Both the position numbers and the translations under genes were made by a program. Positions 4,907 through 53,831 of a DNA stretch of 64,000 nucleotides are shown one piece after another (positions within the stretch are counted from its first letter, which is position 1; each line of letters starts with the position of its first letter). The notes below the pieces were generated by a model. The model was not told where the DNA came from. It saw only the letters and a list, made by a program, of their open reading frames with translations, and did no database searches. Source of the stretch: Lentimicrobium saccharophilum (lineage in GTDB: Bacteria > Bacteroidota > Bacteroidia > Bacteroidales > Lentimicrobiaceae); NCBI RefSeq assembly GCF_001192835.1, contig NZ_DF968182.1:1428968-1492967 (forward strand), read 5' to 3'.

Positions 4907-5914
4907 TTAAATGCTGTTTTTGATTAATTTTTTAGTCAGTAGAGCATTCCCGGAATTAATTCTTATACAATAAACTCCTACAGGAATTGTCTCAATATTT
5001 AAAGTTAATGCTGAACCAGAGATCTCATTCTTCCGGAATTCCAGAATAACATTTCCCAGCACATCAACTATACACACTGATTCAATAAATGACAATTCAT
5101 TAATATTTTCAATTTGTATTACGTCAGTAGCAGGATTTGGGAAAACGCTGACTCCACTCAGATCATTTTCAGAAATGCCAACAAAACCTTCGTTGGGTAT
5201 TATCCTATATGTTGTACCCTCAGATGGAGTGCCGTCAATAAACCAATAGCAAGGAGGAAGGCACATGTTAAAGAAGTCATATAACGGATTATCGGCAGCA
5301 TCGTAATAACTTAATATATTACTGCAATCGTCATAAGCGAATTTGATGCTGGGCCCCGGATCAGGGTCTGATATCCCTTCAGGATAACCATATGTTCCAG
5401 GATCTGCCTGGTAATCTCCAAAATGAAGTTCAAAATGTGCATCCTCTTGAAAAATCCAGATTTGAAAGTCAACAAAATCAGAAGTATCGCTGGTAGAAAA
5501 CCATTGGACAAAGCCCGCATTTTTCCATTGAATCTTAATAATGTATTGCCCTTCTTCTCCCACAACTTCGTAATCTATGCCGGATAATGAAGAATCAACT
5601 CCTTTGTCTTTTAATAAATACCCTCCAAATGGTGTATGATAAATTTGAATACCCTTTCCATCAGCAGGAAAAGAAATTCCACCTCCTGCATGAACATACA
5701 ATGAACTATATTCCTGATCGAAAACAGTAAAATTAAAGTCAAAATCAATAGGATAGACACTACCTTCATTCCAGATTTCTCCGTTGTTAACAGATATTGG
5801 GTTGTTGATTTCAATATAGTCTTCCATAGATGTTGTACTGAAATATGGAGTGTCCTGTCCAAAAAGAAAATTTTTAATAATTAAAAAACTTAACAGAATC
5901 CAAATCTTTTTCAT
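4907..5914 (-). CDS. Secreted protein with type IX secretion sorting domain
   Basis: A 335-residue secreted protein of unknown activity. It has a signal peptide (MKKIWILL through FGQ, about 1-19). The middle is rich in Asp and aromatic residues, and SLYVHAGGGISF and HFELHFGDYQ suggest a beta-sandwich module like those of secreted Bacteroidota surface proteins. The last 80 residues form a type A sorting domain: FPNPATD (about 256-262), a VLGNVI strand and a final GVYCIRI...KKLIKNS segment, which directs export through the Por system and anchoring or release. Its stop codon runs straight into the palindromic site A. I do not recognise the central domain. Confidence 0.85.
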   Translation of the reverse strand: MKKIWILLSFLIIKNFLFGQDTPYFSTTSMEDYIEINNPISVNNGEIWNEGSVYPIDFDFNFTVFDQEYSSLYVHAGGGISFPADGKGIQIYHTPFGGYLLKDKGVDSSLSGIDYEVVGEEGQYIIKIQWKNAGFVQWFSTSDTSDFVDFQIWIFQEDAHFELHFGDYQADPGTYGYPEGISDPDPGPSIKFAYDDCSNILSYYDAADNPLYDFFNMCLPPCYWFIDGTPSEGTTYRIIPNEGFVGISENDLSGVSVFPNPATDVIQIENINELSFIESVCIVDVLGNVILEFRKNEISGSALTLNIETIPVGVYCIRINSGNALLTKKLIKNSI

Positions 5915-22978: not shown

Positions 22979-22986
22979 TATCTTTG
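22979..22986 (+). promoter_or_regulatory. -7 promoter box of the C10 protease gene
   Basis: TATCTTTG fits TAnnTTTG and lies 21 bases before the ATG at 23008. No convincing -33 TTTG is seen at the usual spacing. Confidence 0.5.
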
Positions 22987-23007
22987 TCAGACATAAACCA
23001 ACCTGAT

Positions 23008-24480
23008 ATGAAAACCTGGCCCCTCTCCCTGCTGACCATCCTGTTCCCGATGCTGCTTTCAGCCCAACCAGCACAACCTGAAAACCTCCGCTTCGGCGAT
23101 GCGCTGCAAACCGTGCGCGGGCACCTTTACCGCTATCCCGAAAAGAGGGTAAGCCCCGGGGATACTTACCTGCTGCTTTACGCGGATGGCCGCGCCGCAA
23201 CTGCTACGGTACGTGCCGGTCTGGCCGGAGAGGAAGCTGCGGGCCGCGACCTGCTGGCCCGGGTGTTTCCGCTGGAACCTTCGGGCTATGTGGTGGTAGC
23301 CGCTTCTCCCCTGCTGCCCCGCGTCATCGCCTATTCATTTACCGCCGGTTGCGGCAGGCCGGAAAGCGGCAATCCGCTGCTGACGCTGCTCAGGGCCGAC
23401 CTGAAATCCAGGCTCGACTATGCGGCAGAAAGCGGTCAGGCGGCGGCGGTCGGCGAACCTATGCCGCGGCGCGACCGTCCGGAGCAGTGGCCGGCTACCG
23501 GCGACGGCTGGCTGAAGACCAACTGGACGCAGAACGCGCCTTATAATAACCTCTGCCCCATGGACCCGGTAACCTTCTCGCGGAGCTATGCCGGCTGCCC
23601 GGCCGTGGCCATGGCCCAGATCCTGAACTTCCATAAAAACCTGAACAATACGCGTTTTGACGATGGCGACGACTATTACCACAGCTATGCCGGCCGCAAC
23701 TACCAGATTGACGACGACCATACGCAAAACGGTTTCCCCTCCTTTCCGCAGCTTAATGTTTACCTCGACACCCTGCAGGCCCATTATGAGCGGGATGTCA
23801 ACCTGAGCAATACCGACAAGGCCGCCCTGGTGTTTGCCTGCGGGGTGGCCTGCACCCAGGTGTTTACCTCGGAAGCCTCGGGCACCTTCGGGGTGGATCA
23901 GGCGCTGGAGGCCTACCTGCGCTTTGGCTTCTCCACGGTGGCCCTGCTTGACGAGAACGACGCGGACCTGTATGACCGACTGCGGCAGAATATGATGGAT
24001 ACCCTCCCCGCCCACCTCGCGGTGGTGGATCCCGGCTGGACCACCGGCCACAATGTGGTGGTGGACGGTTACAACTCTGACGACTACTACCACCTGAACT
24101 TCGGCTGGGGCGGCATGTACAACGGCTGGTACCTGCTTCCGGAGGAGATCCCTTACAACCTCACGGTGGTGGAGGGCGTGGTGCTCGACATCAGCAGGGA
24201 CACCACCACCGTCAGCAGCCATCATGTTCAGGCAGGGCAGGCGAAGGTATTTCCCAATCCCACCGCGGGCAGGCTGACGATTGCCTTCCCCGCTTCACCG
24301 GGACAAATAAACAGCGTTAAGATTTATAACGCGGCGGGCTGCCTGATCGAAAGCAGGAAAAACATCAGTAGCGGCACGTTTAATCTGGACCTGTCAGACC
24401 GCCCCGGCGGGCTGTACATCTTCACCATCCGCGATCAACAGGGACGGGTAACCAGCGGGAAGTTTGTGATAAACAGGTAA
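23008..24480 (+). CDS. C10 family cysteine protease (streptopain-like) with T9SS sorting domain
   Basis: A 490-residue secreted protease of the SpeB/Prevotella interpain type. Signal peptide ends near LLSAQP. A propeptide of about 150 residues precedes the mature domain. Catalytic Cys is in SYAGCPAVAMAQIL (Cys about 197), catalytic His in GHNVVVDGY (about 348), and the Trp-rich NFGWGGMYNGWYLL motif (about 363-376) follows. A type A sorting domain ends the protein (VFPNPTAG, then GGLYIFTIRD). The ATG at 23008 starts the signal peptide; the longer frame begins at a TTG inside the promoter. Likely an extracellular or surface peptidase. Confidence 0.93.
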   Translation: MKTWPLSLLTILFPMLLSAQPAQPENLRFGDALQTVRGHLYRYPEKRVSPGDTYLLLYADGRAATATVRAGLAGEEAAGRDLLARVFPLEPSGYVVVAASPLLPRVIAYSFTAGCGRPESGNPLLTLLRADLKSRLDYAAESGQAAAVGEPMPRRDRPEQWPATGDGWLKTNWTQNAPYNNLCPMDPVTFSRSYAGCPAVAMAQILNFHKNLNNTRFDDGDDYYHSYAGRNYQIDDDHTQNGFPSFPQLNVYLDTLQAHYERDVNLSNTDKAALVFACGVACTQVFTSEASGTFGVDQALEAYLRFGFSTVALLDENDADLYDRLRQNMMDTLPAHLAVVDPGWTTGHNVVVDGYNSDDYYHLNFGWGGMYNGWYLLPEEIPYNLTVVEGVVLDISRDTTTVSSHHVQAGQAKVFPNPTAGRLTIAFPASPGQINSVKIYNAAGCLIESRKNISSGTFNLDLSDRPGGLYIFTIRDQQGRVTSGKFVINR

Positions 24481-25769: not shown

Positions 25770-26132
25770 TCAAAAGAATTTCTTTTTCATGCCCTGCTTG
25801 AACAGCACAACCTGCACCTTTTCGGCGGTCACCAGGCAGCCGGTGGGAATTTTATCGAACCAGGGCAGGATGATATTTACAAACTGTTCAATTTTCGTGG
25901 GCTCATCCACCATTTCTACAATTACGGGCAGTTTTTCCGTGATTTCCCAGAATTTGGCGGAGTGTATAACGCTGCTCGATCCGTACCCCATACAGCCTTT
26001 AGTAACCGTAGCACCGGCCAGTCCGTAGCGTTTGGCGGCAAACACCAGGGTTTCGCTCAGCAGGGTATGCCTGAATTTATCGGTATTGCTGATGTAGAAG
26101 CGCAATCGTGTGGCTTCGGAATTGCTTTTCAT
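25770..26132 (-). CDS. DUF190 family protein
   Basis: A 120-residue PII-like protein of the DUF190 family: LRFYISNTDKFRHTLLSETLVFAAKRYGLAGATVTKGCMGYG (about 10-51, quoted in parts: RFYISNTDKF, AAKRYGLAGATV, KGCMGYGSS) and a LPVIVEMVDEPTKIEQF strand-helix. Its ATG overlaps the crcB stop by four bases, so translation is likely coupled. DUF190 genes accompany crcB in many genomes and are presumed to help in fluoride response, without a known mechanism. Confidence 0.88.
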   Translation of the reverse strand: MKSNSEATRLRFYISNTDKFRHTLLSETLVFAAKRYGLAGATVTKGCMGYGSSSVIHSAKFWEITEKLPVIVEMVDEPTKIEQFVNIILPWFDKIPTGCLVTAEKVQVVLFKQGMKKKFF

Positions 26133-26512
26133 GGTACTATGATTTTGGTAAGCGCGTGTCCGCCAAAGGTAGCCAGCAGGCCGAGGAATACGCTGAGTCC
26201 GGCATACAGGCTGAAATACAATATACTGCCGTCGCGCAGCAGGGCCAGGTTCTCGTTCGAGAAGGTGGAAAAGGTGGTAAAGCCGCCGCAGAAGCCCACG
26301 GCCAGAAAAAGGCGCAATTCATTGCTTATGGGGGTGCCCCTGTCGGAAAGGCCGTAAATGAGGCCGATCAGAAAGCATCCGGTGATATTGACCCAGAAAG
26401 TGCCAAGCGGAAATGAAGTGATCACAGTATTCTGTATGCTCCTTGAAAGCAGGTAGCGTGCAATGCCGCCAAGAAAACTGCCGGAGCCGATGAAAAGTAG
26501 AATCTTCAACAT
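26129..26512 (-). CDS. crcB: Fluoride channel CrcB/Fluc
   Basis: A 127-residue membrane protein with four helices, the usual length of Fluc fluoride channels, which act as dual-topology dimers. Motifs GGIARYLLSR (about 15-24), the Asn in FWVNITGCFLIG (about 40-51) and GFCGGFTTFSTFSNE (about 73-87) with the Phe-box residues are all present. It exports fluoride passively. The gene is preceded by a fluoride riboswitch, which fixes the function with confidence. Confidence 0.96.
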   Translation of the reverse strand: MLKILLFIGSGSFLGGIARYLLSRSIQNTVITSFPLGTFWVNITGCFLIGLIYGLSDRGTPISNELRLFLAVGFCGGFTTFSTFSNENLALLRDGSILYFSLYAGLSVFLGLLATFGGHALTKIIVP

Positions 26513-26727: not shown

Positions 26728-28275
26728 CTACCTCGTGCAGCTGCACTCTTCCGAGGCCCCGCTCTCCATTCCGTTTTCGTGGGTTGTGGTGAGGTAATAG
26801 AAATAGCGTACGCCAGCCAGTGTATCCGCATCAGTATATTCTGTGCTTTCACCCGGGATACTTGTCAGTTTCACCGGTGCTTTTCCCCTTTCGTAACGGT
26901 AAATATTGATTGAAGATAAACCATCGTAGCTTACCTCACCCCATTCAAGCTGAATGCCGGCTCCGGCAGAAACGGCCTGAAGGGCAAAGGGAGGAACAGG
27001 CAGACTTTGTCCGGTGCGCAGGGTGGCGATGGCGGCTGCAGCACTCCGGTTACCGTCAATATCAACCGAAAACAACCTGTAGATGTACAGTTTTCCGGGC
27101 TCTGCAGTATCATCCGTAAAACTGTTTATTTTCAGAATTTCATTCTCAGGAAGTAATGATCCGAATGCCTCCCCTTCTGACTGTCGCTGCAACCAGTAAC
27201 CGGCGATTATATTATTTTGGTTTCCCTGATTTTTCCAGTGCATCACCACCTTCCGGTCTTCTTCATAGACTGTGAAATCTGAAGGCGCTTCAGGTGGGAG
27301 GCTGAGTTTAGGCCTGAGATAGGTAAGCTCAGAAAATGTGCTTTCCACGAAACTGCTGCTTTCGGTTTTGGCGGCAAAAATATAGGTAATGCCTCCCGAC
27401 AATGTTCCTGATGTATCGATCCAGGAAATCAACAGCGAATCGTTGGGTCTGAGGAGGTCGCTCACCACGCGCAATTCAGGGGTAATCCCGTCGTTCCGGT
27501 AAATGCGGATACCGGTGGCTTCCGCGTCACTCACCCTGTATTGCAATGATACGCCTCCTTTCAGGCGTTTTGACCTCACCAGCCATGGCGGCGCGGGAGC
27601 CTGAGGGTTGAACGCTGCACTGAAGATTACATTACTCGCAATAGTCTGGTTTTTATCTGCCGGTACTGCCAGAATCCGGTAATAATAAACTTTATCGGGT
27701 TTGATCTCCAGATCGGTAAACCGGGTTTGATCGGCAGGAAGGGTCGCCAGCAGCGAAAAGTCTTTGTCAGGATGTTGGCTGCGTTCAATTTCAATCCTTT
27801 GAACCGATTGATTCCCGTTGAGCGCCCATTCCAGATTGATGCCCAGCATTTTGCTATCTTTTCCGGCTTTTGTGGAAATAAACCAGAACCTGGAACCCAT
27901 CGGAGAAATCAGTGTGATGCTGCTGCTGTTACCTGCGATGCGGTTTGTATCCAGCTGAACCATAAAGTATTGCAGATTTTCCTGACGTGGAGTTTTCAGC
28001 ACAGTGGTGTCGAAGAAGGAATAGAAGGTTGTATCAGCGCTTCGCATAATAGCTTTGACTCCTTTGGCCTCCACCGGATTGTCCCCTTCATAGCGCAGCG
28101 GCATAAAATCCGGAGCCGGTCGATCGCCTTTGCTGAACCATTGCAGGTATATCAGGTCCGGCGTTGTTTCGCTGACAAGAAAAACCGGTTTGTCGAACCC
28201 TGCCGGGGTCTTAACCTGTGCAAAGGCATCCGTCAGTAACAGGGCAATGACTGCCGGCATCAGATATTTACTCAT
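26728..28275 (-). CDS. Secreted fibronectin type III repeat protein
   Basis: A 515-residue secreted protein. The start at 28275 gives a signal peptide (MSKYLMPAVIALLLTDAFAQ); an ATG at 28290 is also possible. At least four fibronectin type III-like beta modules follow: YYYRILAVPADKNQTIAS, a middle VSLQYRVSDAEATGIRIYRND, VMHWKNQGNQNNIIAGYWL and IQLEWGEVSYDGLSSINIYRYE, each ending with YFYYL- or YRLF-type strands. It is the last gene of an operon with the TANFOR protein and an outer-membrane barrel (gap 59 bases from this start, 17 from the longest possible start). Likely an extracellular assembly or adhesion component. Confidence 0.82.
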   Translation of the reverse strand: MSKYLMPAVIALLLTDAFAQVKTPAGFDKPVFLVSETTPDLIYLQWFSKGDRPAPDFMPLRYEGDNPVEAKGVKAIMRSADTTFYSFFDTTVLKTPRQENLQYFMVQLDTNRIAGNSSSITLISPMGSRFWFISTKAGKDSKMLGINLEWALNGNQSVQRIEIERSQHPDKDFSLLATLPADQTRFTDLEIKPDKVYYYRILAVPADKNQTIASNVIFSAAFNPQAPAPPWLVRSKRLKGGVSLQYRVSDAEATGIRIYRNDGITPELRVVSDLLRPNDSLLISWIDTSGTLSGGITYIFAAKTESSSFVESTFSELTYLRPKLSLPPEAPSDFTVYEEDRKVVMHWKNQGNQNNIIAGYWLQRQSEGEAFGSLLPENEILKINSFTDDTAEPGKLYIYRLFSVDIDGNRSAAAAIATLRTGQSLPVPPFALQAVSAGAGIQLEWGEVSYDGLSSINIYRYERGKAPVKLTSIPGESTEYTDADTLAGVRYFYYLTTTHENGMESGASEECSCTR

Positions 28276-28334
28276 TTTTCTAACGTTCATAACCTGGGTA
28301 TTTTTCAGTAAATACAATTAGTTCCGGCCGTTTA

Positions 28335-31300
28335 TCACGGGCAAAGGTTTTCGCCACAACTTCCGAGCATCAGGCCAAAATCGCAGCCGGTATCGCTGAT
28401 CTTCATCTTAAGGCCAATATCGGGAGAGGTGATGTCGACCCCTGTCCAGCCCAAACCGTAAAACACTTCCGCTGAAACGCCGGCATTCACGCTTCCGCAA
28501 CCGGTTACATTGTATGAGCCGTTGGAGTAATACAAGCCACTTATCCCCATCTGGGCATTGGCATGTACTTTCAGTGCATAGAGGCCTCCGCTCACACCGC
28601 CGCCGATGTTCCCATCTGCCAGCAATGAAATGCCATAGGTATTTACCTGCGGATCAAAGCTCATCCAGGTTCTGGCATACATCGACAGGTCGGCATATAC
28701 CTGCACCCCGACAAACTGATCAATCAGGGGAAGGGTTACCCCCCACTCTATGGATGGGATGAGCTGTTTGGTGATGACCCCCTGCAGCAGGAAGCCGCTC
28801 ACCTTGCCCCGGAATTCTGCAGGGATGCATTTCAGCGCCCCGAATGGCGCGGAGAGGGCCGGAGAGAGGGCTCCGTAATCGCCGAACAAACCGAAAAGAC
28901 CGCAACTCCCGATGCCCGGAATAGACAGGTTGCCCTGAACATTGATGTACCACCCGTTCGGATCAAAAACACAATCGGCGGTACCATTCGCCTGCATCCC
29001 GGCCAGGTTTTTATCAACGTTGACCGAACCGGTTAACCGAGAATTCGCGATATCGTATGTCAGCGTCATGCCCGGAAAGTCATCGAGCTTACTCACACTT
29101 ACGCTCTGTCCGCTTGCACTGATGTCGCCTTCGCACACAAACTTCAACCTGCTCTTCTGCGGATTGTTGCTGATGCCGTTCATCCCTGCCATCTCGCCTT
29201 CAAACCAGAAGTTATTCCAGGCATGCAGTGATTTATTCACTTCCATACCGCCTGCAACATTCTCAAAGAACTTTGTTTTATCCTGCGTGATATAGATTTT
29301 TTCATCAAACGGAATATCAATTTCGGTGGATGCCGGCTTGTGCACCAGGTCAATGTGCACAGGGCCGAGTTTTCCTTCCTCGGTGGCAGTTCCTCTGGCG
29401 GTAAAGAGCTGGGGGCTGAATTTCAAACTGGCAGGATCCCAGATAAAGGCCATATTGTTGTGTGTGAAGTTGATGGGATTGGGATTATCCAAGATAAACT
29501 TCATGCCGGAGGAGACCTTCTGCCAGGCCATATTGCCATTGAACTCCTCAATGTAAGGGATTCCGGGCAGATAAGTACCCTGAACCTTAAACCAGGGCGG
29601 AGATGCCGAATTGAAGATATTCAGGATGGATCCGGCAGCAGGTCTGAAATCGACAATGTCGAAAAGCTTCAGATTCTGCGCCAGTGGTTCAAACCTTGGC
29701 TGACTTCCGTCGCTGATCAGCCGTATTCCATTCAGCGGCAGCTTCTGCCCGGGCAATCCGGGAAGTCCTGAAATTATCGCCGTTTGTGGCCCGCCGTCGG
29801 GTGTCGCATAAAGCACCCACTGCATATTACCATTGCCGGTATCATAATAGTTCAGCCCCTGATTCTTAGTAGTTACCTCCACCGGAAGTGCACCCAGGAT
29901 TTTCAGTCCGTTGAATTCAGCAATGGTATTGCTGTGATCAATGGCATCGCGCGTGATTACCAGGTTTTTCAACGGAATATCCAACCCCGAAGCCTTAATC
30001 GTTGCCTGGTCTATTTTAACGCCCAGGTTATCGAGACTCCATTTCTGGCTGGTCAGTTTCCACTGATTCAGGTTAAATGTGATGGGCCCCTTCCCGTTGA
30101 AAACAAAACTGGTTTTGCTTATTTCCACCACTCCCAGCTGAATTTTAAGGTCAGCCGGCGTTATGTTGGTACATTGGGTATGCAGGGTGGTGTTAAGAAG
30201 CAGTTTCCCGTTGTTCAGGTATGATTTGGCAATCTCTGCACTGGCTGAGTTCTCAAATGCCGGAAGCGAATACCGGAGGGCTTCTCCGTTGATTCCGCAT
30301 ACAAAAAAGCCGGTTGCCGGGAGTTGTACAGGTTTAACCCTTGCCGGATTGGCCGCGAAAACGGGCATGTTCATTTTATCCTGACCCGAAGCTGTCGATA
30401 TGGCAAGGCCAATGGGCGGAAAAGTGGTCATGGTGTTGTTGAACTCGGTGGGTTCTATGCTAACCCTGCCTTTAAGGGTACCCCAGGCAGATGAACTGCT
30501 TTCGCGATCGATGGTTATCCCGCCCGGCTTATAAACGTTCCCTGAAAAGGTTTTCAGAACCATGATGTTTTGCAGGTTGCTTTTTGAAGTAGCCACCGGA
30601 AGGCTTGCAGGCTCAGCCAACGGAACTCCTTTGCTGTTTTTCCTGCTTCCGGCTTTGATTTCAATGTCTGAGAAAGGAATCACCAGCCCGGCATCCGCAC
30701 TGAACTGTTCATTGCTGCGGATGTTCGTCAGGTTACCGTTGATTCTCACTGTCTTGTCATCATTTTCGGTAAGGCTGGTAACTTCCATGGGAAATCCCAT
30801 CAGGCTGGTTATGTCCATATCCTCATAGACGGTCAGGTTGAAATCAATGGTCACGCATTCATTTGAGGCTTTGTTGATCAGGATCTTCCTTTCATCACCT
30901 ATGTAGTTGCTCGCCGATTTTGCAGCAGTAACCTGTTGCAGGTAATTCCTGACCGGGAAGTTGTTCATGTAATAATAGCCGTCGGCCCCTGAAATGCTGC
31001 TCAATGTGTCGGCTGAGCCCTGGTAACGCACATTGGCAATCCCGACGGGTGATCCGGTGCCACTGCCGGCATACACATGCCCTTTGATGCATGCTGCCGG
31101 ATTCAGCACGCAATTTAAGATTACCGCATGCTGACTGTAAGGGATTTTTATGGTAAAATACCGGGTTTCAAAATTCCGGCTGGTATTCGAAGGCATCCCG
31201 ACCCTTATCCGGTACTCCTGATTATTATTGGCGCCACCATTAACAAAACTGAATGTAACGATGCCGTCGGAATCCGTAAAACCACCCAAAGGATAGTTAT

Positions 31301-33992
31301 TCCCCTGTTGGTTTGTGCTGACATTCATGATGTTTACCAGCACATTCGGGACCGGCATCATGATAAAGTTATGGGAAGTCTTAACCCTTACTTCGAGCCG
31401 GCGCTTCAGGGTAAACAGCTTCACATCAAGGTGTTTCACTGCCTGGGCTGCTTCGAATCCGATGGTATCGGTGATGTAACCGTTGCGCTTTACAATCAAT
31501 TTCTGTGTAACACCCGGCAGCAGCGGAACCGGCATCTCAAAACTGCCGTTTACCGGGCTGCTGTTGTAGGTCCTGCCATCCGGCAAACAGAGTTGTGCAT
31601 TGAGCGGCTGATTTGATTCGGCATCGCGCACATAGCCTTTTAAAATGGCGCCCTTGCGGAGTTTTAATTCGTTTTTGATAACCTGGCGGCCGTAAATAAT
31701 GATTCCGATGTGATCGTCGAGGGTCTGATACCCATCCTTGCCGGCCAGCAGGTGCCGGTCGGGACCGGTAACCGCTTTCTCCTGCATATTGTAAACCATC
31801 GTCAGGTCGTCAAAAACAAACTTTCCGTCGGCGGCCGTAATGGCCATCAGGCTGTTGAAATACTGTCCGCAGTTATTCTGCAGACAGTTAACCACCGGCT
31901 GGTTTTCATTATACATCCAGTAAGGATAATAGATCTTCAGGTTATTTTTCGGGCTCAGGTTAAATTGCTCATTCAAATCTATTTTTGCTCCGGCGATGGG
32001 TGAACTATCCTCATTTTCAAGCACAGTACCTGCCACTTTCGGCCATTGCGGCCACAAATACAGTTCTTTTGACTGTCGGGCTTTGTTGTAGTCATAGAAC
32101 CCGGGGAACTGAAGGATTGAAGGATTAATTGTGCCGGTGCCTGTTTTATCGGGCACGGTTTGCGGCGGACTCCAGGCGACCGGGGCTCCAAAGGTATAAT
32201 TCATGTCTGCCTCAGGCGGAGTATCCGCCATCAGGTAATACTGAAACTGACTCTGGTGATGCCAAACCACCCGCTGAAATGTCAGGGTTCCGTCGGGCCC
32301 GGTAGTTCCATGTGCAACTACGGAGAAGCCCGGAAACTTGTTCTTCACGGATTCATCCACCTGGTGCTGCTGACCTTTTATCTTTCCGTCGTTTAACGGA
32401 AACAACTGATAAGAGAAATCTATTTTCCGCAATAAATACACATTGATGGTACTAAGTTTCTCGGTTCCGACGGCATTGGTCAGATCAGCACTTAGATTCT
32501 TGTCGGGGAGGGTGGTTACTGTGATCTGACAACTTCTTACATTGGCAATTACATCACCTGTGTTAAGGTCCTTTCCTTTTTCAGGCATCAGCAACACATC
32601 AGGATTGAAATAAAAATTCCGGTGCGGGGCCTCAATCAGGATCAAAGCCACCCGGTAATGATCGTAGCCCATCTCTCCTGTGCCTGCTCCGCAACGTTTA
32701 CCAAAGTCAGGGCTGTTCAGGATATTGAAAGTGAAACGGCCCTCTGAATCGGTAGTAGCAACGCCGAGCACCCGGCCGACTTCCGGGTCATCACAGCCAT
32801 TGTGGGGTTGCAAAAGATGTTCCAGCACATTTCCCGGAAGCAGGGGTTGCCCTTTGAACACTTTGGCATGCCCAACCACCAGTTTAATGGTTGCGGCGGC
32901 AAGCGGAAATTTCTGATTTTCACCAGGATCGGAATATCTGTAAACAAGCCTCCCGAAAACCTTAGACGGCAATAACGGAAGCGGCACTTCCATATTGACA
33001 CCGCCGATATTTACAGGCCGCACAACAGGCTCATCGCTGATTTCCGGAAGATCGGACCCGGGGAACATCATTCCGCCTGATTTCCAGATAAAACTGCACA
33101 CCTCACTCTGTCCGTAGTTTCTGAAATTGTGGTGCCTGGCCGGATCATACGCGGTAACTGCAAAGGCATAGGTTTTCCCTTTCACCAGTGCTGGTTGCGC
33201 AGGTCCGTATACAAATGCAGTAGTGTTGGTATTGGTTTCAAAGAAAATGGGTTGTGCGGCCGAGTTAAATGCATTCTGAATATTGTGGGTTCCCGGGACC
33301 ACTTCAATCATCTGAAGCTTATATCTTGTCGTGACCGGTGCGCCGGCCGGCCTTGTCCATGAAATAATCAGGTTTTGCGGACTGGTGGCGGTAATTTCTT
33401 CACCACAGAAAGGCTGTGTGATAACCGGCGGCTCAATGCTGGTCACCGGAAAGGGCGGACAGCAACCGGCAGGATCTTCGTCGGATAACGGCTGGTTTGT
33501 CAGGTAATCATAAGCCCTCAGGCAAATGGTATAATCGTCTTCCGGAAGTCCGTTCCCCCTTATAATTTCCTGCTCGGTAATGCCTGCATAAACAAGCTGA
33601 GAGGTATTGAAAATATCCTGTATGTTATTCAGATTGAGCCGGTAAATACTACCGGGCATCAGGTTCAGGGGTTGTGGAGGACGGTGCCCGGGCCGGGTGT
33701 AAATCCGGATACCGGAAGAACCGGAAATTTCTCCGGTCAGGTAAACCTGGAGTGCCCGGCTGCCGGTCCCCGGAAGATACTGAACGGTAGCCAGGATTTT
33801 ATTGGGATTGCTGGTATACTCACTGATTTTCGGAGAATAAGGAGGTGCCACCACCAGGTTAACCCTCAGGGGGTATTCCTGTGCATGGGCGGAATATATT
33901 GTCAGAAAAGGTATGATCATTAACAGGCCGGCCATCCCACATTTGCGGATGCAACAGCCTATGCTGTTTTTAAAATGTGAATACATAACCAA
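28335..33992 (-). CDS. Giant TANFOR-domain secreted protein with CarboxypepD_reg-like repeats
   Basis: An 1885-residue exported protein. A signal segment ends near SAHAQEYP. Residues about 40-180 match the TANFOR domain (VVAPPYSPKISEY, LPGTGSRALQVYLTG, DDYTICLRAYDYLT). A fibronectin-like module (about 195-305) follows, then several carboxypeptidase-regulatory or cna-B-like beta domains (for example GRLVYRYSDPGENQ, GTVLENEDSSPIAGAKI, GYVRDAESNQPLNAQL, GHVYAGSGTGSP). The last 600 residues are beta-rich with many Gly/Asn and end in FGLMLGSCGENLCP. No T9SS sorting domain is recognised. It overlaps the outer-membrane barrel gene by 23 bases, implying coupled translation. The role is unknown; surface fibre or secretion partner is a reasonable guess. 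Confidence 0.85.
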   Translation of the reverse strand: MVMYSHFKNSIGCCIRKCGMAGLLMIIPFLTIYSAHAQEYPLRVNLVVAPPYSPKISEYTSNPNKILATVQYLPGTGSRALQVYLTGEISGSSGIRIYTRPGHRPPQPLNLMPGSIYRLNLNNIQDIFNTSQLVYAGITEQEIIRGNGLPEDDYTICLRAYDYLTNQPLSDEDPAGCCPPFPVTSIEPPVITQPFCGEEITATSPQNLIISWTRPAGAPVTTRYKLQMIEVVPGTHNIQNAFNSAAQPIFFETNTNTTAFVYGPAQPALVKGKTYAFAVTAYDPARHHNFRNYGQSEVCSFIWKSGGMMFPGSDLPEISDEPVVRPVNIGGVNMEVPLPLLPSKVFGRLVYRYSDPGENQKFPLAAATIKLVVGHAKVFKGQPLLPGNVLEHLLQPHNGCDDPEVGRVLGVATTDSEGRFTFNILNSPDFGKRCGAGTGEMGYDHYRVALILIEAPHRNFYFNPDVLLMPEKGKDLNTGDVIANVRSCQITVTTLPDKNLSADLTNAVGTEKLSTINVYLLRKIDFSYQLFPLNDGKIKGQQHQVDESVKNKFPGFSVVAHGTTGPDGTLTFQRVVWHHQSQFQYYLMADTPPEADMNYTFGAPVAWSPPQTVPDKTGTGTINPSILQFPGFYDYNKARQSKELYLWPQWPKVAGTVLENEDSSPIAGAKIDLNEQFNLSPKNNLKIYYPYWMYNENQPVVNCLQNNCGQYFNSLMAITAADGKFVFDDLTMVYNMQEKAVTGPDRHLLAGKDGYQTLDDHIGIIIYGRQVIKNELKLRKGAILKGYVRDAESNQPLNAQLCLPDGRTYNSSPVNGSFEMPVPLLPGVTQKLIVKRNGYITDTIGFEAAQAVKHLDVKLFTLKRRLEVRVKTSHNFIMMPVPNVLVNIMNVSTNQQGNNYPLGGFTDSDGIVTFSFVNGGANNNQEYRIRVGMPSNTSRNFETRYFTIKIPYSQHAVILNCVLNPAACIKGHVYAGSGTGSPVGIANVRYQGSADTLSSISGADGYYYMNNFPVRNYLQQVTAAKSASNYIGDERKILINKASNECVTIDFNLTVYEDMDITSLMGFPMEVTSLTENDDKTVRINGNLTNIRSNEQFSADAGLVIPFSDIEIKAGSRKNSKGVPLAEPASLPVATSKSNLQNIMVLKTFSGNVYKPGGITIDRESSSSAWGTLKGRVSIEPTEFNNTMTTFPPIGLAISTASGQDKMNMPVFAANPARVKPVQLPATGFFVCGINGEALRYSLPAFENSASAEIAKSYLNNGKLLLNTTLHTQCTNITPADLKIQLGVVEISKTSFVFNGKGPITFNLNQWKLTSQKWSLDNLGVKIDQATIKASGLDIPLKNLVITRDAIDHSNTIAEFNGLKILGALPVEVTTKNQGLNYYDTGNGNMQWVLYATPDGGPQTAIISGLPGLPGQKLPLNGIRLISDGSQPRFEPLAQNLKLFDIVDFRPAAGSILNIFNSASPPWFKVQGTYLPGIPYIEEFNGNMAWQKVSSGMKFILDNPNPINFTHNNMAFIWDPASLKFSPQLFTARGTATEEGKLGPVHIDLVHKPASTEIDIPFDEKIYITQDKTKFFENVAGGMEVNKSLHAWNNFWFEGEMAGMNGISNNPQKSRLKFVCEGDISASGQSVSVSKLDDFPGMTLTYDIANSRLTGSVNVDKNLAGMQANGTADCVFDPNGWYINVQGNLSIPGIGSCGLFGLFGDYGALSPALSAPFGALKCIPAEFRGKVSGFLLQGVITKQLIPSIEWGVTLPLIDQFVGVQVYADLSMYARTWMSFDPQVNTYGISLLADGNIGGGVSGGLYALKVHANAQMGISGLYYSNGSYNVTGCGSVNAGVSAEVFYGLGWTGVDITSPDIGLKMKISDTGCDFGLMLGSCGENLCP

Positions 33993-35661
33993 AGTCCCCT
34001 TTTAGTTCGTTAAATGTTGGTTCCTGCGTGGTTCCCTTTGCCAGGAAACGGATAAAAAACACATTCAGCCGAAGCGAATGGTGGTTGCTGACCTGATAAC
34101 CAGCATTAACCGAAGTATTAAGCGTCAAGCTTCTTTCGGTATCGCCTTGCTGTCCCGACCAGATCAATGCGTTACTGAGGCCCGATTGTATTTTGCCTTC
34201 GAGCCACGACTTGCTCACACCAGCCGTAAACCCGGAAGCCGAATTCTCAAAAACATAGTTTTGAAGTTTATTGTATGTAAAGCCCAGCATCAGGGTCAGC
34301 GCGCTTTTGTTAAACCCCAGGTTATAGTTCAGATTCGCAATGGTTGCATCGTTTTCGGTGAACTCCGCGGTTGAGGCATTCTTGTCATTAAGCTTCATTT
34401 TGTTGAACATCAGCATCAGGATGTGGCTGTACTTATCGTTCACAATCATCAACCGGGGCATGATGCCCAGGTTGGTGGTGGCCTGAAAGAACTTCAGGGA
34501 ATCGATCAGTGGCAACCGTCCGGCCCGTTGATTGCTGCTGTAATTGTTATAGTTGATGTCGATACCGAAAACAGGTACAGGATTGTAACTCAGGTTAACC
34601 GATGAGATGGTACGCAGGCTGGTGGCTTTGCGGGTATTCCGCAGGTTATCGCGCTGCAGGCCGAGACTTCCCCTGATATTCAATTTACGCTTGAACAGGT
34701 TAAATGCCGGCGCAATCACCAGGTTTTCAAGGTCATTGTTGAAGAAGTACGCCCCCATAGAGCGATATCCCGGATCAATGCGCCGGTACTCGAGTTTGGT
34801 GCTGAAAGACCTGGATTTGAAATTCAGCGATGAGCGGACGGCTGTCAGCAGCTCAGAAGAGAGATTAACCGGTGTGATTTTATTCAGCCGGCTCAGCCAG
34901 GGATCGTCTTCCAGCCCCTCAAATCCATATGCAGCTACATCCGTAGTGTACAGGCTGCCGGCAACTTCCCCTTCAAACCACATTTGCTTGCTGAATGATA
35001 TGCGGGCATTCAGGCCCGTTACAAGGTTTGATTCCGCCGGAATGTATACTTCCCCGGGCTTGCGGATTGCAGTGGCGCTGTCGTCGTTCACCTTCATCAC
35101 AATCAGGTCAACAAATGTCTTTTCGGAGCCTACGCCCAGCTTTATGGCATAACCCTTCCGGCTTAGGTTGCGCGTGGTGTCTATTGCATTCTCATAGGGT
35201 ACTGTGCTTTTTCTGAATCGGCCGTAAACAGCCCCAAACCTGAATTTTCCGGGGTGCATTTCAATTCCGGCGCCAAGGAAAGTGTGCCCGGCAAGGGTGT
35301 AATCAGAGAAGTTGACATTCCGGTAACCAAAGTGAGTCGTCAGCCATTTGTAAGAAGGACTCAGCCCGAACTGATTGAAGGGCTGGGTGTAATCCACCCT
35401 TTTATCGCTGAACCGGAAGGAAAACGGGATATCAAACCCATAGGTACTTATGGTGGCATTGGCTGCAAGCATCAGCGCAAATGGTCTGGCACGGTTTTCA
35501 ATGCCCGAAGCATGATAACCGATCACATTGGCTGAAATGTTGCCGTGTATGGAGAAAGGATCCTGTTGGCTGAGGTGGTCCAGTTGCTGCGCGCTGACAA
35601 AGGTGTTAAAGGAAGCCAAAAAGGTTCCGGCAAGCATTAAGGCGATGTAAAGTTGTTTCAT
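33970..35661 (-). CDS. Outer-membrane beta-barrel, partner of TANFOR protein
   Basis: A 563-residue outer-membrane protein. Signal peptide MKQLYIALMLAGTFLASFNTFVSAQ. The body is a regular series of amphipathic beta strands with aromatic girdles (GFDIPFSFRFSDKR, FRFGAVYGRFR, LRLNVFFIRFLA) and the chain ends in FGYVFTF, a barrel-type C-terminal Phe. First gene of the three-gene operon, with a good promoter 270 bases upstream. The order barrel, giant beta-domain protein, fibronectin protein suggests a channel or anchor plus an exported partner. Confidence 0.85.
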   Translation of the reverse strand: MKQLYIALMLAGTFLASFNTFVSAQQLDHLSQQDPFSIHGNISANVIGYHASGIENRARPFALMLAANATISTYGFDIPFSFRFSDKRVDYTQPFNQFGLSPSYKWLTTHFGYRNVNFSDYTLAGHTFLGAGIEMHPGKFRFGAVYGRFRKSTVPYENAIDTTRNLSRKGYAIKLGVGSEKTFVDLIVMKVNDDSATAIRKPGEVYIPAESNLVTGLNARISFSKQMWFEGEVAGSLYTTDVAAYGFEGLEDDPWLSRLNKITPVNLSSELLTAVRSSLNFKSRSFSTKLEYRRIDPGYRSMGAYFFNNDLENLVIAPAFNLFKRKLNIRGSLGLQRDNLRNTRKATSLRTISSVNLSYNPVPVFGIDINYNNYSSNQRAGRLPLIDSLKFFQATTNLGIMPRLMIVNDKYSHILMLMFNKMKLNDKNASTAEFTENDATIANLNYNLGFNKSALTLMLGFTYNKLQNYVFENSASGFTAGVSKSWLEGKIQSGLSNALIWSGQQGDTERSLTLNTSVNAGYQVSNHHSLRLNVFFIRFLAKGTTQEPTFNELKGDFGYVFTF

Positions 35662-35928: not shown

Positions 35929-35960
35929 CAAATATAGGGAATTAAACATCGATTGTCAAA
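35929..35960 (-). promoter_or_regulatory. Promoter of the barrel-TANFOR-FN3 operon
   Basis: Minus strand TTTG at 35960-35957, 20-base spacer, TATATTTG at 35936-35929: a close match to the Bacteroidota -33/-7 promoter. It leaves a leader of about 260 bases before the ATG, in which I recognise no structured element. The remainder of the gap 35662-36176 shows no gene. Confidence 0.6.
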
Positions 35961-37878: not shown

Positions 37879-40800
37879 TCACAATTCATGCTCAACCATC
37901 AGACCTGCCTTTAAGGCTTTACGACTTGCTTTTCTATCCGCCAGCTTTTCCTTTATCGTATCTACGATGTAATACATCATAGGGACCAGATACACCGTCA
38001 GAATCATAGATGAAAGCAATCCTCCGATAATAACCCATGCCAGGCCGTTTTTCCATTCGCTTGCGGTACCTTTAGCCAAAGCAATGGGCAACATACCGAT
38101 TGCCATGGATAGTGTCGTCATTAAAATCGGCCGCATTCGCTCTTTGCCGGCGATGATGAGTGCTTCTTTGAAATGCCTGCCCTGCGCTTTTAACTGGTTT
38201 GTAAAATCCACAATCAGGATGGCATTTTTTGTCACCAGACCCATAAGCATGATCAATCCCAACTGTGCAAACAGGGTAAGGTCGTTTAACGACAGGTTTA
38301 ACGCCAGGAATGCCCCGATGGCGGCCATCGGGATGGCGAACAAAGCCACAAACGGATAGATGTAGCTGTCATAAAGGGCAATCATAATCAGGTAGATCAA
38401 TAAAAATGAGATAATCAGCACCGAACCCAAAGCCCCGAAACTTTCATTCTGTGTTTTGATATCGGCGCCCCAGGTCAGCTTCACGCCTTCGGGCAAAGGT
38501 TTCTTCTCCAGGAAGTCAATTACATCATCCGCCAGGGTTCCCGAGGGCCTCCCGAACGATTCCGACGTAATTGTAACTGACGGCTGCCTGTCAAGTCGTT
38601 CGAGTAACGATGGCGAGTTGTCCTGTTTCACTGCTGCAAATTGCGACAATTCAACAGGAATATTCATCGGATTTACCACAGAAAGTCGCTGCACATCCTC
38701 AAAGTTCCTGCGGTCAAAGTCATCCAGCCATATCCTTACAGGATATTCAGTTCCGTTTTCAGTTAAAGAAGCATCATCGTTTCCTGTAAAAGCGGTTCTT
38801 AAGTTTAATCCAACATAAGCAGTATTCAAGCCCAGGCGCTGCATCTTGTCCTTATCGGGGATCACCTTGTATTCGGGGCTTCCTTCTTTAACCGACAACT
38901 GCACATTATCGGCACCCGGAATCTGTTCTATCGCGGCTTTCAGCTCATCGCCCGTTTTCATTACCAGGGCCGGATCGTTGCCGCTCAGGGTAATTTTTAT
39001 GGGTGCCTGCTTAGGAAGTAAACCTAACACAGCCATAGAAAAATTAACACCGGCAAACTCTTTATTCAGCGCTTCACGAAGCGATTTCATAAAAGTTTCT
39101 GTATTTATATCCCTTTCTTTTTCAGGCTTCAACTGAATGGTGAATTCCGAGAGATTGGCTGAGCCAACGCCTGAACTCCCGATCCCTGTGCCAGGCCCGG
39201 CCACATTACTGAAAAGTGTTGACACCTCAGGCTGTTGCAGTATAAAATTCTCTATTTCCCGGGACCGGATATTGTTCTCCTGCACGGTGGTAGTTTTGTC
39301 ATATTCCAGGTTCAGCCGGAATTTTCCCTGATCACCCGTTGACATCATTTCCTTGCCTATGATACCCTGCTGCATCATAACGCCCGTCATTACCAGGAGA
39401 AAAATCACAATTCCTGAAAAGAACAGTTTATGCGAAAGAACCCATTCCAACTGATGGCCATACCAATTGGTAAATGCTGATAACTGCCTTTCGAACCAGA
39501 GCAGGAAACGGTTAATGATGTTGGTGGGTTGCAAATCTTCCTTTTTCCCGATTCGCGAGGCCAGCCAGGGGACCAGCGTAAACCCGACCAGCAAGCTGGT
39601 AAGGGTTGAAGTGATTACTACAATGGAAAACTGTTTCAGCATATCGGCCACAAACACCTGCAAAAACAAAATAGGCAGAAACACCACTACATCGACCAGG
39701 GTGATTGAAATGGCCGAAAAACCAATCTCCATGCGTCCTTCCAATGCCGCGGCTGCCTTGTCCTTGCCCATGTCGATGTGACGCTGAATGTTTTCAAGAA
39801 TCACAATGGCATCATCCACCAGAATCCCGATAATCAGCGACATGGCCAGTAGGGTCATCAGATTTAAGGTGAAACCCATCAGCCACATCACCGCAAAGGC
39901 TGTAATCAGAGAGGTTGGAATGGCAACCAGTACGATCAGAGAATTCCGGTAGCTGCGCAAGAACAGGAACATAACCAGCGAAACCAGGATCACCGCCAGT
40001 ATCAGGTCGAACACCACTGAATTTACCGCTGCAATCGTCAGATCGGTTGAATCATCGGCAACCGCAAACTTCACTCCATACTGTGTATTGGCCGCTTCGA
40101 TCTGCTGTAGTTTTTCACGAACCAGTTTTGAAACTTCCACGGCATTGGCATCCCCTTGCTTTTTCAATAAAAGCCCTATCCCGTTTTTGCCGTTATAACG
40201 GCTTACGGAACTTACCTCCTTCACACCGTCAACTACATTGGCTACATCTTTAACATAAACCGGACTTCCGGGCATCGGCATAGCCACCTGAACATTCATA
40301 ATATCTTTTACACTTGCAAATTTCCCGGTCAACCTTACAGAATTGCTTTCCTTATCGGTTTGCGCCTTACCGGCAGGCAAATCGATTCCTGAGCGATTGA
40401 TGGCTTCTACAACCTGATAAAGTGAGATTTTATAAAGTTTCAATTTATCCTGATCTGCCTTTACCTGAATTTCGCGTTCTTCACCACCCAGCATCGTAAT
40501 TTCGGCAACGCCTTTAAGCTGCTGCATCTGAGGCAGGTAATCATCTTTCATTTTCTGGTAAAACTCAGTTGCCGGCAGGTTACTTGTTGCGCTGATCGAA
40601 ATGATCGGCAGATCGTTCGGAGAAACCTTGCTCATGACCGGACTTAAGATATCGGCAGGCAGGTCTTTGCGGATATTGTCAATGTAGCGCTGGGCATCCT
40701 GCATGGCAATGCTCAGATCCGTGCCATATTTCAGGTTGGCGATAATGACAGAGGCATTGGGCATCGATTTGGTTTCCAGGTAGTCAACGCCTTCAAGATT

Positions 40801-41016
40801 TGACAGAGCATCCTCTACCTTTCTGGATACAGAGGTTTCAACTTCATCCGGCTCTGCCCCGGGATACATTGTTTTTATTACTATGACCGGTTGGTTAAAG
40901 TCGGGCAACAGCTCATAGCCCAGATTTTTAAAGCCTATGATCCCCAAAAGGGTAAATACGCTGAAAAGAACGATGATCAGCGACGGCCGGTTGATTGATA
41001 TTTTTGTAATGTTCAT
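37879..41016 (-). CDS. RND efflux transporter permease, HAE1/AcrB type
   Basis: A 1045-residue inner-membrane proton-driven pump subunit of normal length. It starts with the typical NITKISINRPSLIIVLFSVF, and has the proton-relay GILVDDAIVILEN in TM4 (Asp-Asp near 402-403), periplasmic porter domains (PDEVETSVSRKVEDALSNLEGVDYL; NDLPIISISA) and the second TM half (GLVTKNAILIVDFTNQ). It forms a tripartite pump with the adaptor and TolC genes directly upstream (12- and 25-base gaps). Substrates are unknown. The 132-base gap 37747-37878 downstream has no gene. Confidence 0.96.
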   Translation of the reverse strand: MNITKISINRPSLIIVLFSVFTLLGIIGFKNLGYELLPDFNQPVIVIKTMYPGAEPDEVETSVSRKVEDALSNLEGVDYLETKSMPNASVIIANLKYGTDLSIAMQDAQRYIDNIRKDLPADILSPVMSKVSPNDLPIISISATSNLPATEFYQKMKDDYLPQMQQLKGVAEITMLGGEEREIQVKADQDKLKLYKISLYQVVEAINRSGIDLPAGKAQTDKESNSVRLTGKFASVKDIMNVQVAMPMPGSPVYVKDVANVVDGVKEVSSVSRYNGKNGIGLLLKKQGDANAVEVSKLVREKLQQIEAANTQYGVKFAVADDSTDLTIAAVNSVVFDLILAVILVSLVMFLFLRSYRNSLIVLVAIPTSLITAFAVMWLMGFTLNLMTLLAMSLIIGILVDDAIVILENIQRHIDMGKDKAAAALEGRMEIGFSAISITLVDVVVFLPILFLQVFVADMLKQFSIVVITSTLTSLLVGFTLVPWLASRIGKKEDLQPTNIINRFLLWFERQLSAFTNWYGHQLEWVLSHKLFFSGIVIFLLVMTGVMMQQGIIGKEMMSTGDQGKFRLNLEYDKTTTVQENNIRSREIENFILQQPEVSTLFSNVAGPGTGIGSSGVGSANLSEFTIQLKPEKERDINTETFMKSLREALNKEFAGVNFSMAVLGLLPKQAPIKITLSGNDPALVMKTGDELKAAIEQIPGADNVQLSVKEGSPEYKVIPDKDKMQRLGLNTAYVGLNLRTAFTGNDDASLTENGTEYPVRIWLDDFDRRNFEDVQRLSVVNPMNIPVELSQFAAVKQDNSPSLLERLDRQPSVTITSESFGRPSGTLADDVIDFLEKKPLPEGVKLTWGADIKTQNESFGALGSVLIISFLLIYLIMIALYDSYIYPFVALFAIPMAAIGAFLALNLSLNDLTLFAQLGLIMLMGLVTKNAILIVDFTNQLKAQGRHFKEALIIAGKERMRPILMTTLSMAIGMLPIALAKGTASEWKNGLAWVIIGGLLSSMILTVYLVPMMYYIVDTIKEKLADRKASRKALKAGLMVEHEL

Positions 41017-41028
41017 GATCTGCAGCTA

Positions 41029-42078
41029 TTAATTGACAATTACATTTGCTCCGTCAAAAAGATTGACGAATCCGTTGGCAACAATGATGTCGCCGCTCAC
41101 CAGGCCTGCCGAAACAATGACTTTATTCTCCACCCTTTTTGAAACAGTGATGTCACGGAGAACTGCCTGCCCGTCTTTCACCAGGTAAACCTGTGGTTGA
41201 ATGTTTGACCCGACAATTACAGATGCAGGGACAATGAGGTGTTTTTCAGAATCAGTATTTTTCCGTTGTACTTTGCCGAACATCCCTGACTTGATTTTCA
41301 GATCGGCCGTATTGCTTAACGTAAACTGAACCGGAAAACTATTTCCCATATTGGATTTACTGCCTGTCATGGTCAGTCTCCCGGTGAGAACAGTTCCGGG
41401 ATAAACATCCGGTGAAATCGTGTACAATTCATTCATTGAAAATTGATTCAATTCGCCTTCAGGTACGTTGGCCGTGAACCTCAGCTGCGAAATATCCGTT
41501 ATCTGCAGCAGGGGAATGCCCGGGGCAGCAAAAGCCCCTTCCTCGGTCAGTTTGGCTGTAACAATTCCGTTAAAAGGCGCATGAATGGTTGTTTTCCTGA
41601 TTTGTTCAAGTAAAGTAGCCTTCTGCACCCGGGCCGATCGCAAAGCCAGGTCAGTCTTTTCTACCTGTATACCCTGAACAGCATCTGCTTTGGCAAGAAT
41701 TATGTAACGCTGAAGATCGTCTTCCAACCCTTCAATCTGAATTTCAACAATTTGCAGCTGAAGTTTCAACAGGGCATTGTCCAGCTGAATGAGAGGCTGC
41801 CCTTTTTTAACTGTGCTTCCCACATCAACAAGCACTGAATTAATCCTGCCCTGTAACTCCGAGCTGATCTTCGTTTCCTTATTGGGCTCAAAAGTCCCGG
41901 GACAGGAGATGTCACTGTCGATGCTTTCTGCCTGCAGCGTAATCGCCTGCACTTTGATGGCCTCTTCCTTGTTGTACTGATAAACTCTGTTTATCGTGGT
42001 TTCCTTGTTGCCCCTGAGCCTCAGGATCATTATGGCAACGATTGCCACTGCCAGGATTAAATAGATTATTTTTTTCAT
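41029..42078 (-). CDS. RND periplasmic adaptor subunit (MFP)
   Basis: A 349-residue membrane fusion protein. It has an N-terminal membrane anchor (about 4-20), a lipoyl half-motif (SSELQGRINSVLVDVGSTVKKGQPLIQLD in parts: QGRINSVLVDVG, KGQPLIQLD), a helical hairpin (about 105-150), the second lipoyl half (IHAPFNGIVTAKLTEEGAF) and beta-barrel and membrane-proximal domains after it. It connects the RND pump to the TolC channel. Order in the operon: TolC, adaptor, pump. Confidence 0.95.
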   Translation of the reverse strand: MKKIIYLILAVAIVAIMILRLRGNKETTINRVYQYNKEEAIKVQAITLQAESIDSDISCPGTFEPNKETKISSELQGRINSVLVDVGSTVKKGQPLIQLDNALLKLQLQIVEIQIEGLEDDLQRYIILAKADAVQGIQVEKTDLALRSARVQKATLLEQIRKTTIHAPFNGIVTAKLTEEGAFAAPGIPLLQITDISQLRFTANVPEGELNQFSMNELYTISPDVYPGTVLTGRLTMTGSKSNMGNSFPVQFTLSNTADLKIKSGMFGKVQRKNTDSEKHLIVPASVIVGSNIQPQVYLVKDGQAVLRDITVSKRVENKVIVSAGLVSGDIIVANGFVNLFDGANVIVN

Positions 42079-52265: not shown

Positions 52266-53831
52266 TTAAAGTTTAATCAGTTTACCGGTCGATAACCGGC
52301 TATCTGTCTGCAGGCGGAAGGAATAGATCCCCGCCGGCAACGCTTCCATGTCCCATTCAATGCTATGTTCACCAGCCGGCAACATTTCATCCGGCAATAC
52401 CGCCACTTCACGTCCCAATGCATCATATATCTTCAGTGACAATCGCTGGCATTCCGAAATCCGGAATCCGAAATTCAAAATACCGCCGGTCGGGTTTGGA
52501 TAAATGTTCACTTCTGTCTGCAGACTGCCCGGCAGGGGAACTCCAACCGATAAACAGGCCTCCTCCACCTCCTCCTCGCTGTTGCAGCCGGGGGCGTTAT
52601 TTTCAATAGTAACGGTTCCATTTGGCGCTGCCAGGTAATCACAGATACTTTGGACAGCGCAGGAGGATAAGGAAAAATTATCGCTAATGATAAGATCATT
52701 AATAGAACTGTCAGCAATATTCTCCAGACCTGTCAAACTGGTCAGGGCATCGTTAACATAAATACTAAGTGTCCAACCGACAGAAGTGAGATTTTCCAAT
52801 GCGGACAAACTGGTCAGTGCATCATTGGCAGAAATAGAAAGCAATCCCCCTATTGTAATAAGGTTGTCCAGTCCAGAAAGGCTGGTCAGGGCATAGTTAT
52901 ATCCAATAAAAAGATCACCCCCGACCGAAATCACATTATCCAGCCCCTCCAGACTGCTAAGAGAAGGATTAGACCCAAAGTAATTTCCGATAACAAGACT
53001 ACCCACAATGGAAGTCAATCCCTCCAACCCTGTTAAACTGGTCAGAACATAGTTCTGTAATATTACGAGATCGCCTCCGATATTTGATAACCCCTCCAGC
53101 CCTGTGAGGCTGACAAGAGATTGATTTCCACACGAGGATGATCCTATATACAGACTACCACCGATAGAAGTAAGGCCCTCCAGTCCTGATAAACTGACAA
53201 GGGCATTGTTACCACAAATAATAAGGTCTCCACCAACTGAGGTCATGCTTTCGAGCCCTGTCAGATTGGACAAGGCATCGTTTCCAGCAATCACCAAGTA
53301 TCCATCGATGGTCGGGCTCTGCATTCCAGTAAGGCTGGTCAGGGCAGGATTTCCAGAACCAATATTTCCAATCTGCAATCCGCCACCGATGAAAGCCAAG
53401 CTTTCCAGTCCTGTCAAACAGGTCATGGCATCGTTACTCCATAAACAAAAATTTCCACCTATAGAGGTCAGGCTTTCCAGTCCGGTCAAATTGGGAAGAG
53501 CATTATTTCTATCGATTCTGAATTCTCCCCCGATAGAACTCAGGTTATCCAGACCAGTCAGGCTGGTAAGTAAATAATTCTCATCAGGCCATCCTCCGAT
53601 GCTGAAATAACCTCCGATTAAATTCAGTACACTCAATCCATTCAGATTATTAATATTAGTACCACGTATGGTAACATCTCCTTCAATCTCCGTACACCCC
53701 GGGTAATTGGTCTGGAAATTATCGATCTGTTCCTGGGTGGTGAAGGTGATGCCTTCGGGCAGGCAACCCTGACAGAAGGCAAAGCACTGGCACATAAGAA
53801 CCACTGCGATGGTCAAGATAAGTTTTTTCAT
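52266..53831 (-). CDS. T9SS surface protein with leucine-rich-like L-domain repeats
   Basis: A 521-residue secreted protein. Signal peptide MKKLILTIAVVLMCQCFAFCQ. Residues about 55-395 form some dozen repeats of LTGLESLTSIGG-type units, alternating with GGDLVI or GSLYIG strands, like the receptor L-domain or BspA-like solenoids. The C-terminal part is a type A sorting domain (IYPNPTGGILNFGF, YDALGREVAVLP, GIYSFRLQTD). Start at 53831 fits the signal peptide. A hairpin terminator separates it from the next surface gene. Probable adhesin or binding protein. Confidence 0.9.
   Translation of the reverse strand: MKKLILTIAVVLMCQCFAFCQGCLPEGITFTTQEQIDNFQTNYPGCTEIEGDVTIRGTNINNLNGLSVLNLIGGYFSIGGWPDENYLLTSLTGLDNLSSIGGEFRIDRNNALPNLTGLESLTSIGGNFCLWSNDAMTCLTGLESLAFIGGGLQIGNIGSGNPALTSLTGMQSPTIDGYLVIAGNDALSNLTGLESMTSVGGDLIICGNNALVSLSGLEGLTSIGGSLYIGSSSCGNQSLVSLTGLEGLSNIGGDLVILQNYVLTSLTGLEGLTSIVGSLVIGNYFGSNPSLSSLEGLDNVISVGGDLFIGYNYALTSLSGLDNLITIGGLLSISANDALTSLSALENLTSVGWTLSIYVNDALTSLTGLENIADSSINDLIISDNFSLSSCAVQSICDYLAAPNGTVTIENNAPGCNSEEEVEEACLSVGVPLPGSLQTEVNIYPNPTGGILNFGFRISECQRLSLKIYDALGREVAVLPDEMLPAGEHSIEWDMEALPAGIYSFRLQTDSRLSTGKLIKL

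Follow-up and report, generated by a model that had tools for sequence, protein, structure and literature searches.

A predicted wide outer-membrane barrel, encoded with a giant TANFOR protein in Lentimicrobium saccharophilum, almost always accompanies TANFOR domains across the Bacteroidota

The window analysed here is a stretch of 64,000 nucleotides from Lentimicrobium saccharophilum (contig NZ_DF968182.1, positions 1,428,968 to 1,492,967), whose genome comprises 4.51 Mb in two contigs and has Lentimicrobium and other Bacteroidales metagenome-assembled genomes as its nearest named relatives. On the minus strand of the window lie three genes, in the order barrel gene, giant TANFOR gene and FN3 gene, tightly packed behind a single promoter match (Table 1). 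A preliminary description, made from the sequence alone, had listed these as three open reading frames (ORFs) that overlap or nearly overlap, with one promoter match and export signals, and inspection confirmed this arrangement. Counted from its likely ATG, the giant gene shares 17 bp with the barrel gene, and the likely ATG of the FN3 gene lies about 44 bp past the giant's stop; the ORFs were called by a simple longest-ORF method, in which the listed TTG starts are mechanical. Sec-type signal peptides ending in ...AQ, judged by eye, are present on all three proteins. The promoter site is a single exact match to the Bacteroidota-type pattern TTG-N20-TANNTTTG and also scores best as sigma-70-like (11/12), while motifs of this kind show no enrichment across the window as a whole.

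Table 1. Features of the barrel–TANFOR–FN3 locus, in window coordinates.
Feature	Position	Strand	Remarks
Promoter match TTGACAATCGATGTTTAATTCCCTATATTTG	35929..35959	-	Pattern match only; about 270 nt 5' of the barrel ATG
Outer-membrane beta-barrel, 563 residues, signal peptide	33970..35661	-	No Pfam/NCBIfam family; AlphaFold model, no plug domain
Giant TANFOR protein, 1885 residues as listed	28335..33992	-	Likely start ATG 33986
N-terminal TANFOR domain and FN3-like half of the giant, about residues 37-306	33075..33884	-	Conserved phylum-wide; found fused to the barrel
Carboxypeptidase regulatory-like domain of the giant, residues 969-1028	30909..31088	-	E = 4.6e-10
C-terminal region of the giant, about residues 1060-1885, beta-rich	28335..30815	-	Neither a known family nor a convincing fold match
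FN3-repeat protein, 529 residues as listed, signal peptide	26728..28317	-	Likely start ATG 28290

The conservation of this locus was assessed by profile searches of genomes. One set of 393 Bacteroidota genomes was searched with both a barrel profile and a 46-sequence profile of the TANFOR N-terminal domain (TANFOR-N). With a cut-off of E ≤ 1e-20, the barrel was found in 95 genomes, TANFOR-N in 97 and both in 95 (Fisher p = 4e-90); this threshold was picked after the data had been seen, and every cut-off applied, from 1e-3 to 1e-30, likewise gives a strong association. In G618, one of the two genomes with TANFOR only, the TANFOR ORF runs off the end of a contig. Among the 130 barrel matches listed, the nearest listed TANFOR is never on the opposite strand; of the 149 TANFOR matches listed, 68 lie within 600 bp of a barrel. 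The curated NCBIfam model TIGR02542 was set aside for this comparison because it is too insensitive, matching 15 of the 393 genomes at E ≤ 1e-3, compared with the 97 reached by the new profile at its far stricter threshold.

The preliminary description had treated the trio as one coupled unit and had proposed searching for it in other genomes, where it proved to be conserved. Within the genus, the barrel and the TANFOR domain are both present in 7 of 19 genomes and both absent from the other 12, and all six giant-bearing genomes besides the host carry the three genes in the same order. At the level of the order, the giant was matched in 46 of 295 genomes, and 20 of these loci (L048–L067; 19 from other families and one from the genus) were compared. 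The barrel lies next to the TANFOR protein or at most two genes from it in 18 of the 20, and the FN3 gene is there as well in 16 of these 18; no barrel was found within the stretch retrieved for L061 and L063. Two loci (L051 and L052) encode a shorter TANFOR protein (534 and 929 residues) followed by a separate large gene, with no FN3 match, and the gene order differs in L058 and L065. Across 57 barrel-bearing loci, a TANFOR gene lies within two genes of the barrel in 47 and an FN3 gene in 32. A barrel in L144 (7913–9904, minus strand), which has no detected TANFOR neighbour, adjoins a TPR-guanylate cyclase gene.

In nine genomes (loci L155 and L166–L173; for example L170, 5009–7720, minus strand), the TANFOR domain and the barrel form one ORF, in which the TANFOR domain precedes the barrel. 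At L174, a closed gene of 289 residues that consists of the TANFOR domain only directly follows the barrel. Together, these fusions and the lone gene show the TANFOR domain to be a separable module that is carried along with the barrel. The conservation of the trio, the near-perfect co-occurrence of barrel and TANFOR-N, their joint presence or absence in the genus and the single-ORF fusions all uphold the idea of a coupled unit, and the genetic coupling of barrel and TANFOR is strong.

A sister cluster was also encountered (L176–L180; for example L176, 2974–9667). It encodes a 366-residue TANFOR-like protein, a FecR-domain protein, a CHASE2-adenylate/guanylate cyclase and a protein of about 800 residues that joins an N-terminal extension to a related barrel. 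The TANFOR match was obtained in L176 and L177 only, the other three loci having a gene of the same size without a match.

The barrel and 20 relatives were compared with Pfam and NCBIfam, without a family match at E ≤ 0.01. An AlphaFold2 model built from 51 sequences (predicted local-distance difference test, pLDDT, 89.3; predicted template-modelling score, pTM, 0.77) has 24 long strands and two short ones, and predicts a wide, empty barrel without a plug of its own. If both short strands are taken to span the membrane, which is our reading of the strand list, the count becomes 26, the long loops fall on one side and the N and C termini both face the periplasm; a fused TANFOR domain would then sit at the periplasmic face or inside the lumen. 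With 24 long strands in the model and no NCBIfam match, the barrel is predicted not to be of the 14-strand PorV/PorP type. Its top fold match in the PDB is MtrB (6r2q_B; template-modelling (TM) scores 0.54/0.48), and its fold neighbours include the usher FimD, at TM scores of only 0.33–0.44, and LptD. No Pfam match to the usher family or to Omp85/POTRA was obtained for the barrel, and a PDB sequence search with the barrel and giant profiles returned nothing meaningful. Longer barrels, of about 815–820 residues, occur in L128, L131, L132, L134 and L135 and carry a C-terminal extension of about 250 residues that looks helical and charged.

The giant matches the NCBIfam TANFOR model over residues 46–183 (E = 1e-11, 45 bits), short of the curated cut-off of 67 bits, which none of the 393 genomes exceeds. 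It had been credited with many regulatory-like beta domains and with no tail for the type IX secretion system (T9SS). A single CarboxypepD_reg domain passes the threshold, so "many" is not borne out, while the missing tail was corroborated by a search at E ≤ 1 that found no NCBIfam sorting domain in the giant, the barrel or the FN3 protein. The model of the C-terminal region is of moderate confidence (pLDDT 76, pTM 0.46), and a fold search with it gave TM scores of at most 0.13 (query-normalised) and local matches to small domains, none of them convincing; matches to ApoB, LptD, Rhs and teneurin were not interpreted. Strand alternation was also calculated for the giant's C-terminus but, for want of a suitable control, was given no weight. 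The protein ends in GSCGENLCP, and a cysteine near the C-terminus recurs in most full-length Bacteroidales relatives. TANFOR-domain ORFs of about 6,400 residues occur in genomes G322, G343 and G440, and many of about 4,000 residues in others. The FN3 protein has no Pfam match and only weak FN3-type matches. An SprF-like Cys-X-Cys tail was considered for it, as it ends in ECSCTR, and was dropped because the relatives examined do not have one.

The preliminary description knew of no function for these genes. The TANFOR family was, in fact, described in 2020 by Jana, Salomon and Bosis as polymorphic toxins that are proposed, though unproven, T9SS substrates (PMC7073777), and the window member lacks toxin features. 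The giant shares with this class an N-terminal TANFOR domain, an apparent signal peptide, very large size, an FN3 neighbour and a T9SS-bearing genome, and differs from it in having no toxin domain, no immunity gene and no polymorphic C-terminus, and in being accompanied by a barrel gene. Domains enriched near TANFOR genes include FN3, SprB and T9SS-tail domains, and no barrel appears in the published table (PMC7073777), as one would expect were the barrel to lack a domain model. Between members of the genus, the giant shows about the same identity over its whole length, without a C-terminal drop (68–95% in the last 100-residue bin), which is the opposite of a swapped toxin tip, and its C-terminal similarity reaches across Bacteroidales families. 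No toxin domain was found in the window giant or in 19 Bacteroidales giants, and the gene next to the giant is that of the FN3 protein, which is conserved and exported, rather than an immunity gene. The flavobacterial locus L129 presents the toxin form, with a TANFOR protein that has a colicin-type DNase domain at its end (E = 3.4e-42) and a short barrel-family ORF of 336 residues as the next called gene. Judged by sequence, the trio is a non-toxin version of the TANFOR–barrel pairing, with a giant whose C-terminus is conserved.

We propose, with a probability of roughly 0.55, that the trio is a TANFOR–barrel unit at the outer membrane, in which the TANFOR domain docks the barrel and thereby holds the giant there. 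The barrel as putative exporter or anchor of the giant, as first suggested, is the best reading of the locus. The barrel would be a dedicated wide outer-membrane protein without its own plug, and the TANFOR domain would dock inside or onto it, the likeliest approach being from the periplasm, where the domain may plug the lumen or bind the barrel mouth. The C-terminal part of the giant had been put forward as the docking region; the N-terminal TANFOR domain is indicated instead, since it is conserved phylum-wide, stands alone after a barrel and is found fused to one. Docking would tie the giant to the outer membrane and present its long modular body there, possibly exposed at the surface, with the FN3 protein as a putative accessory subunit. 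More broadly, the TANFOR–barrel pair may be a general module that carries toxins in flavobacteria and, in the window trio, a conserved body with a presumably non-toxin role.

Several observations weigh against this proposal. A separate TANFOR protein is also present in most of the fusion genomes, and the fused domain may have a role of its own. In the toxin-type flavobacterial loci L133–L136, the barrel lies 6–9 genes away from TANFOR, and for 16 of the 130 barrel matches listed, the contig, in some cases a short one, has no listed TANFOR. Barrel and TANFOR tree distances are correlated over 43 pairs (Mantel r = 0.89; none of 2000 permutations as high), which speaks for the pairing, although shared species history could by itself produce such a correlation. 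The likeness to MtrB is modest and could be generic to wide barrels.

A docking barrel could also act after export by another route. It is possible, though at odds clearly below even, that a non-canonical signal routes the giant out through the T9SS translocon and that the barrel then holds it on the surface, a role like that of SprF for SprB or PorP for PG1035. A strong barrel or TANFOR match was obtained in 96 genomes, and SprA occurs in every one of them, versus 321 of 393 overall; the host genome itself encodes a nearly full-length SprA and at least 150 T9SS-tail proteins. This co-occurrence fits the published T9SS-substrate hypothesis for TANFOR, as does the enrichment of T9SS substrates near TANFOR genes (PMC7073777), but the SprA-negative genomes listed are concentrated in few families, with one family supplying most of them, so that the association is phylogenetically confounded and its independence overstated. 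The PorP/SprF anchors of type B substrates offer a precedent, being dedicated outer-membrane barrels whose genes adjoin that of a large surface-type protein. PorV/PorP-like barrels, however, are 14-strand, FadL-type proteins, and PorP and SprF recognise a C-terminal signal (PMC9143113, PMC12618676), whereas the window barrel has 24–26 predicted strands and is paired with an N-terminal domain, and the giant has neither a type A nor a type B tail. The position of TANFOR ahead of the barrel in the fusions points, moreover, to the periplasm.

Alternatively, the barrel itself could be the export pore of a new two-partner-like pathway of the Bacteroidota, independent of the T9SS, with TANFOR as the docking plug, in trans in operons and in cis in fusions; TANFOR would bind the periplasmic mouth and the giant's body would be threaded out. 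This is a doubtful reading. As in two-partner secretion (TpsB/TpsA), which also exists in toxin-carrying versions, a dedicated barrel gene accompanies a huge passenger with a conserved N-terminal domain, here without a T9SS tail, and the predicted wide, plug-less barrel has FimD and LptD among its fold neighbours. By Pfam, however, the barrel is neither an Omp85 protein, lacking POTRA matches as well, nor an usher; no TANFOR-positive genome in the sample lacks the T9SS, and the energy source is not accounted for.

We consider it similarly improbable that the giant stays in the periplasm and that barrel and TANFOR form an envelope machine, a channel with its plug or sensor, in the manner of MtrA in MtrB. 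MtrB, a 26-strand barrel that embeds MtrA (6r2q, PMC7198977), is the best fold match; it is wide, as the window barrel with its 24 or 26 strands is predicted to be, and sheathes a partner protein. The FecR and CHASE2-cyclase genes of the sister cluster provide a signalling context. In contrast to MtrB, the 21 barrels match no Pfam family profile, and neither a cytochrome gene nor a transported substrate is evident in the trio; toxin-type TANFOR proteins, furthermore, would need to leave the cell to act (PMC7073777). It is very unlikely that the giant belongs with the ordinary polymorphic toxins and has a C-terminal toxin domain that awaits description: it carries the TANFOR domain, and many TANFOR proteins have undescribed ends (PMC7073777), but its conserved C-terminus, the 19 relatives in which no toxin domain was found and the FN3 gene in the place of an immunity gene speak against it. 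A chance neighbourhood of unrelated surface genes, for which no support was found, is contradicted by the co-occurrence, the fusions and the joint gain or loss, and deserves practically no credence.

Other genes flank the trio. A CrcB-like protein gene (window 26129–26512, minus strand) follows the FN3 gene at a distance of about 215 bp, and genes for an RND efflux pump and membrane-fusion protein occupy 37879–42078 on the same strand. A protein with a T9SS tail is encoded on the opposite strand about 2 kb from the trio (22984–24480, plus strand), with more such tails in the window near 4916–5146, 52272–52505 and 53934–54164.

The TANFOR family, mainly known as toxin carriers, almost always comes with its own unannotated, predicted wide barrel across the Bacteroidota. 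Without a Pfam or NCBIfam model, this barrel is invisible to domain-based neighbourhood surveys, and the more sensitive TANFOR-N profile has revealed a large non-toxin branch of the family. Since 2020, the T9SS has been the sole candidate route out of the cell for TANFOR proteins; a conserved, co-inherited and sometimes fused barrel gives them a specific partner. If the export-pore reading were true, one pathway would serve to export toxins in certain lineages and, in others, giant surface scaffolds. For the task of holding TANFOR proteins at the outer membrane or moving them across it, the barrel offers a concrete candidate.
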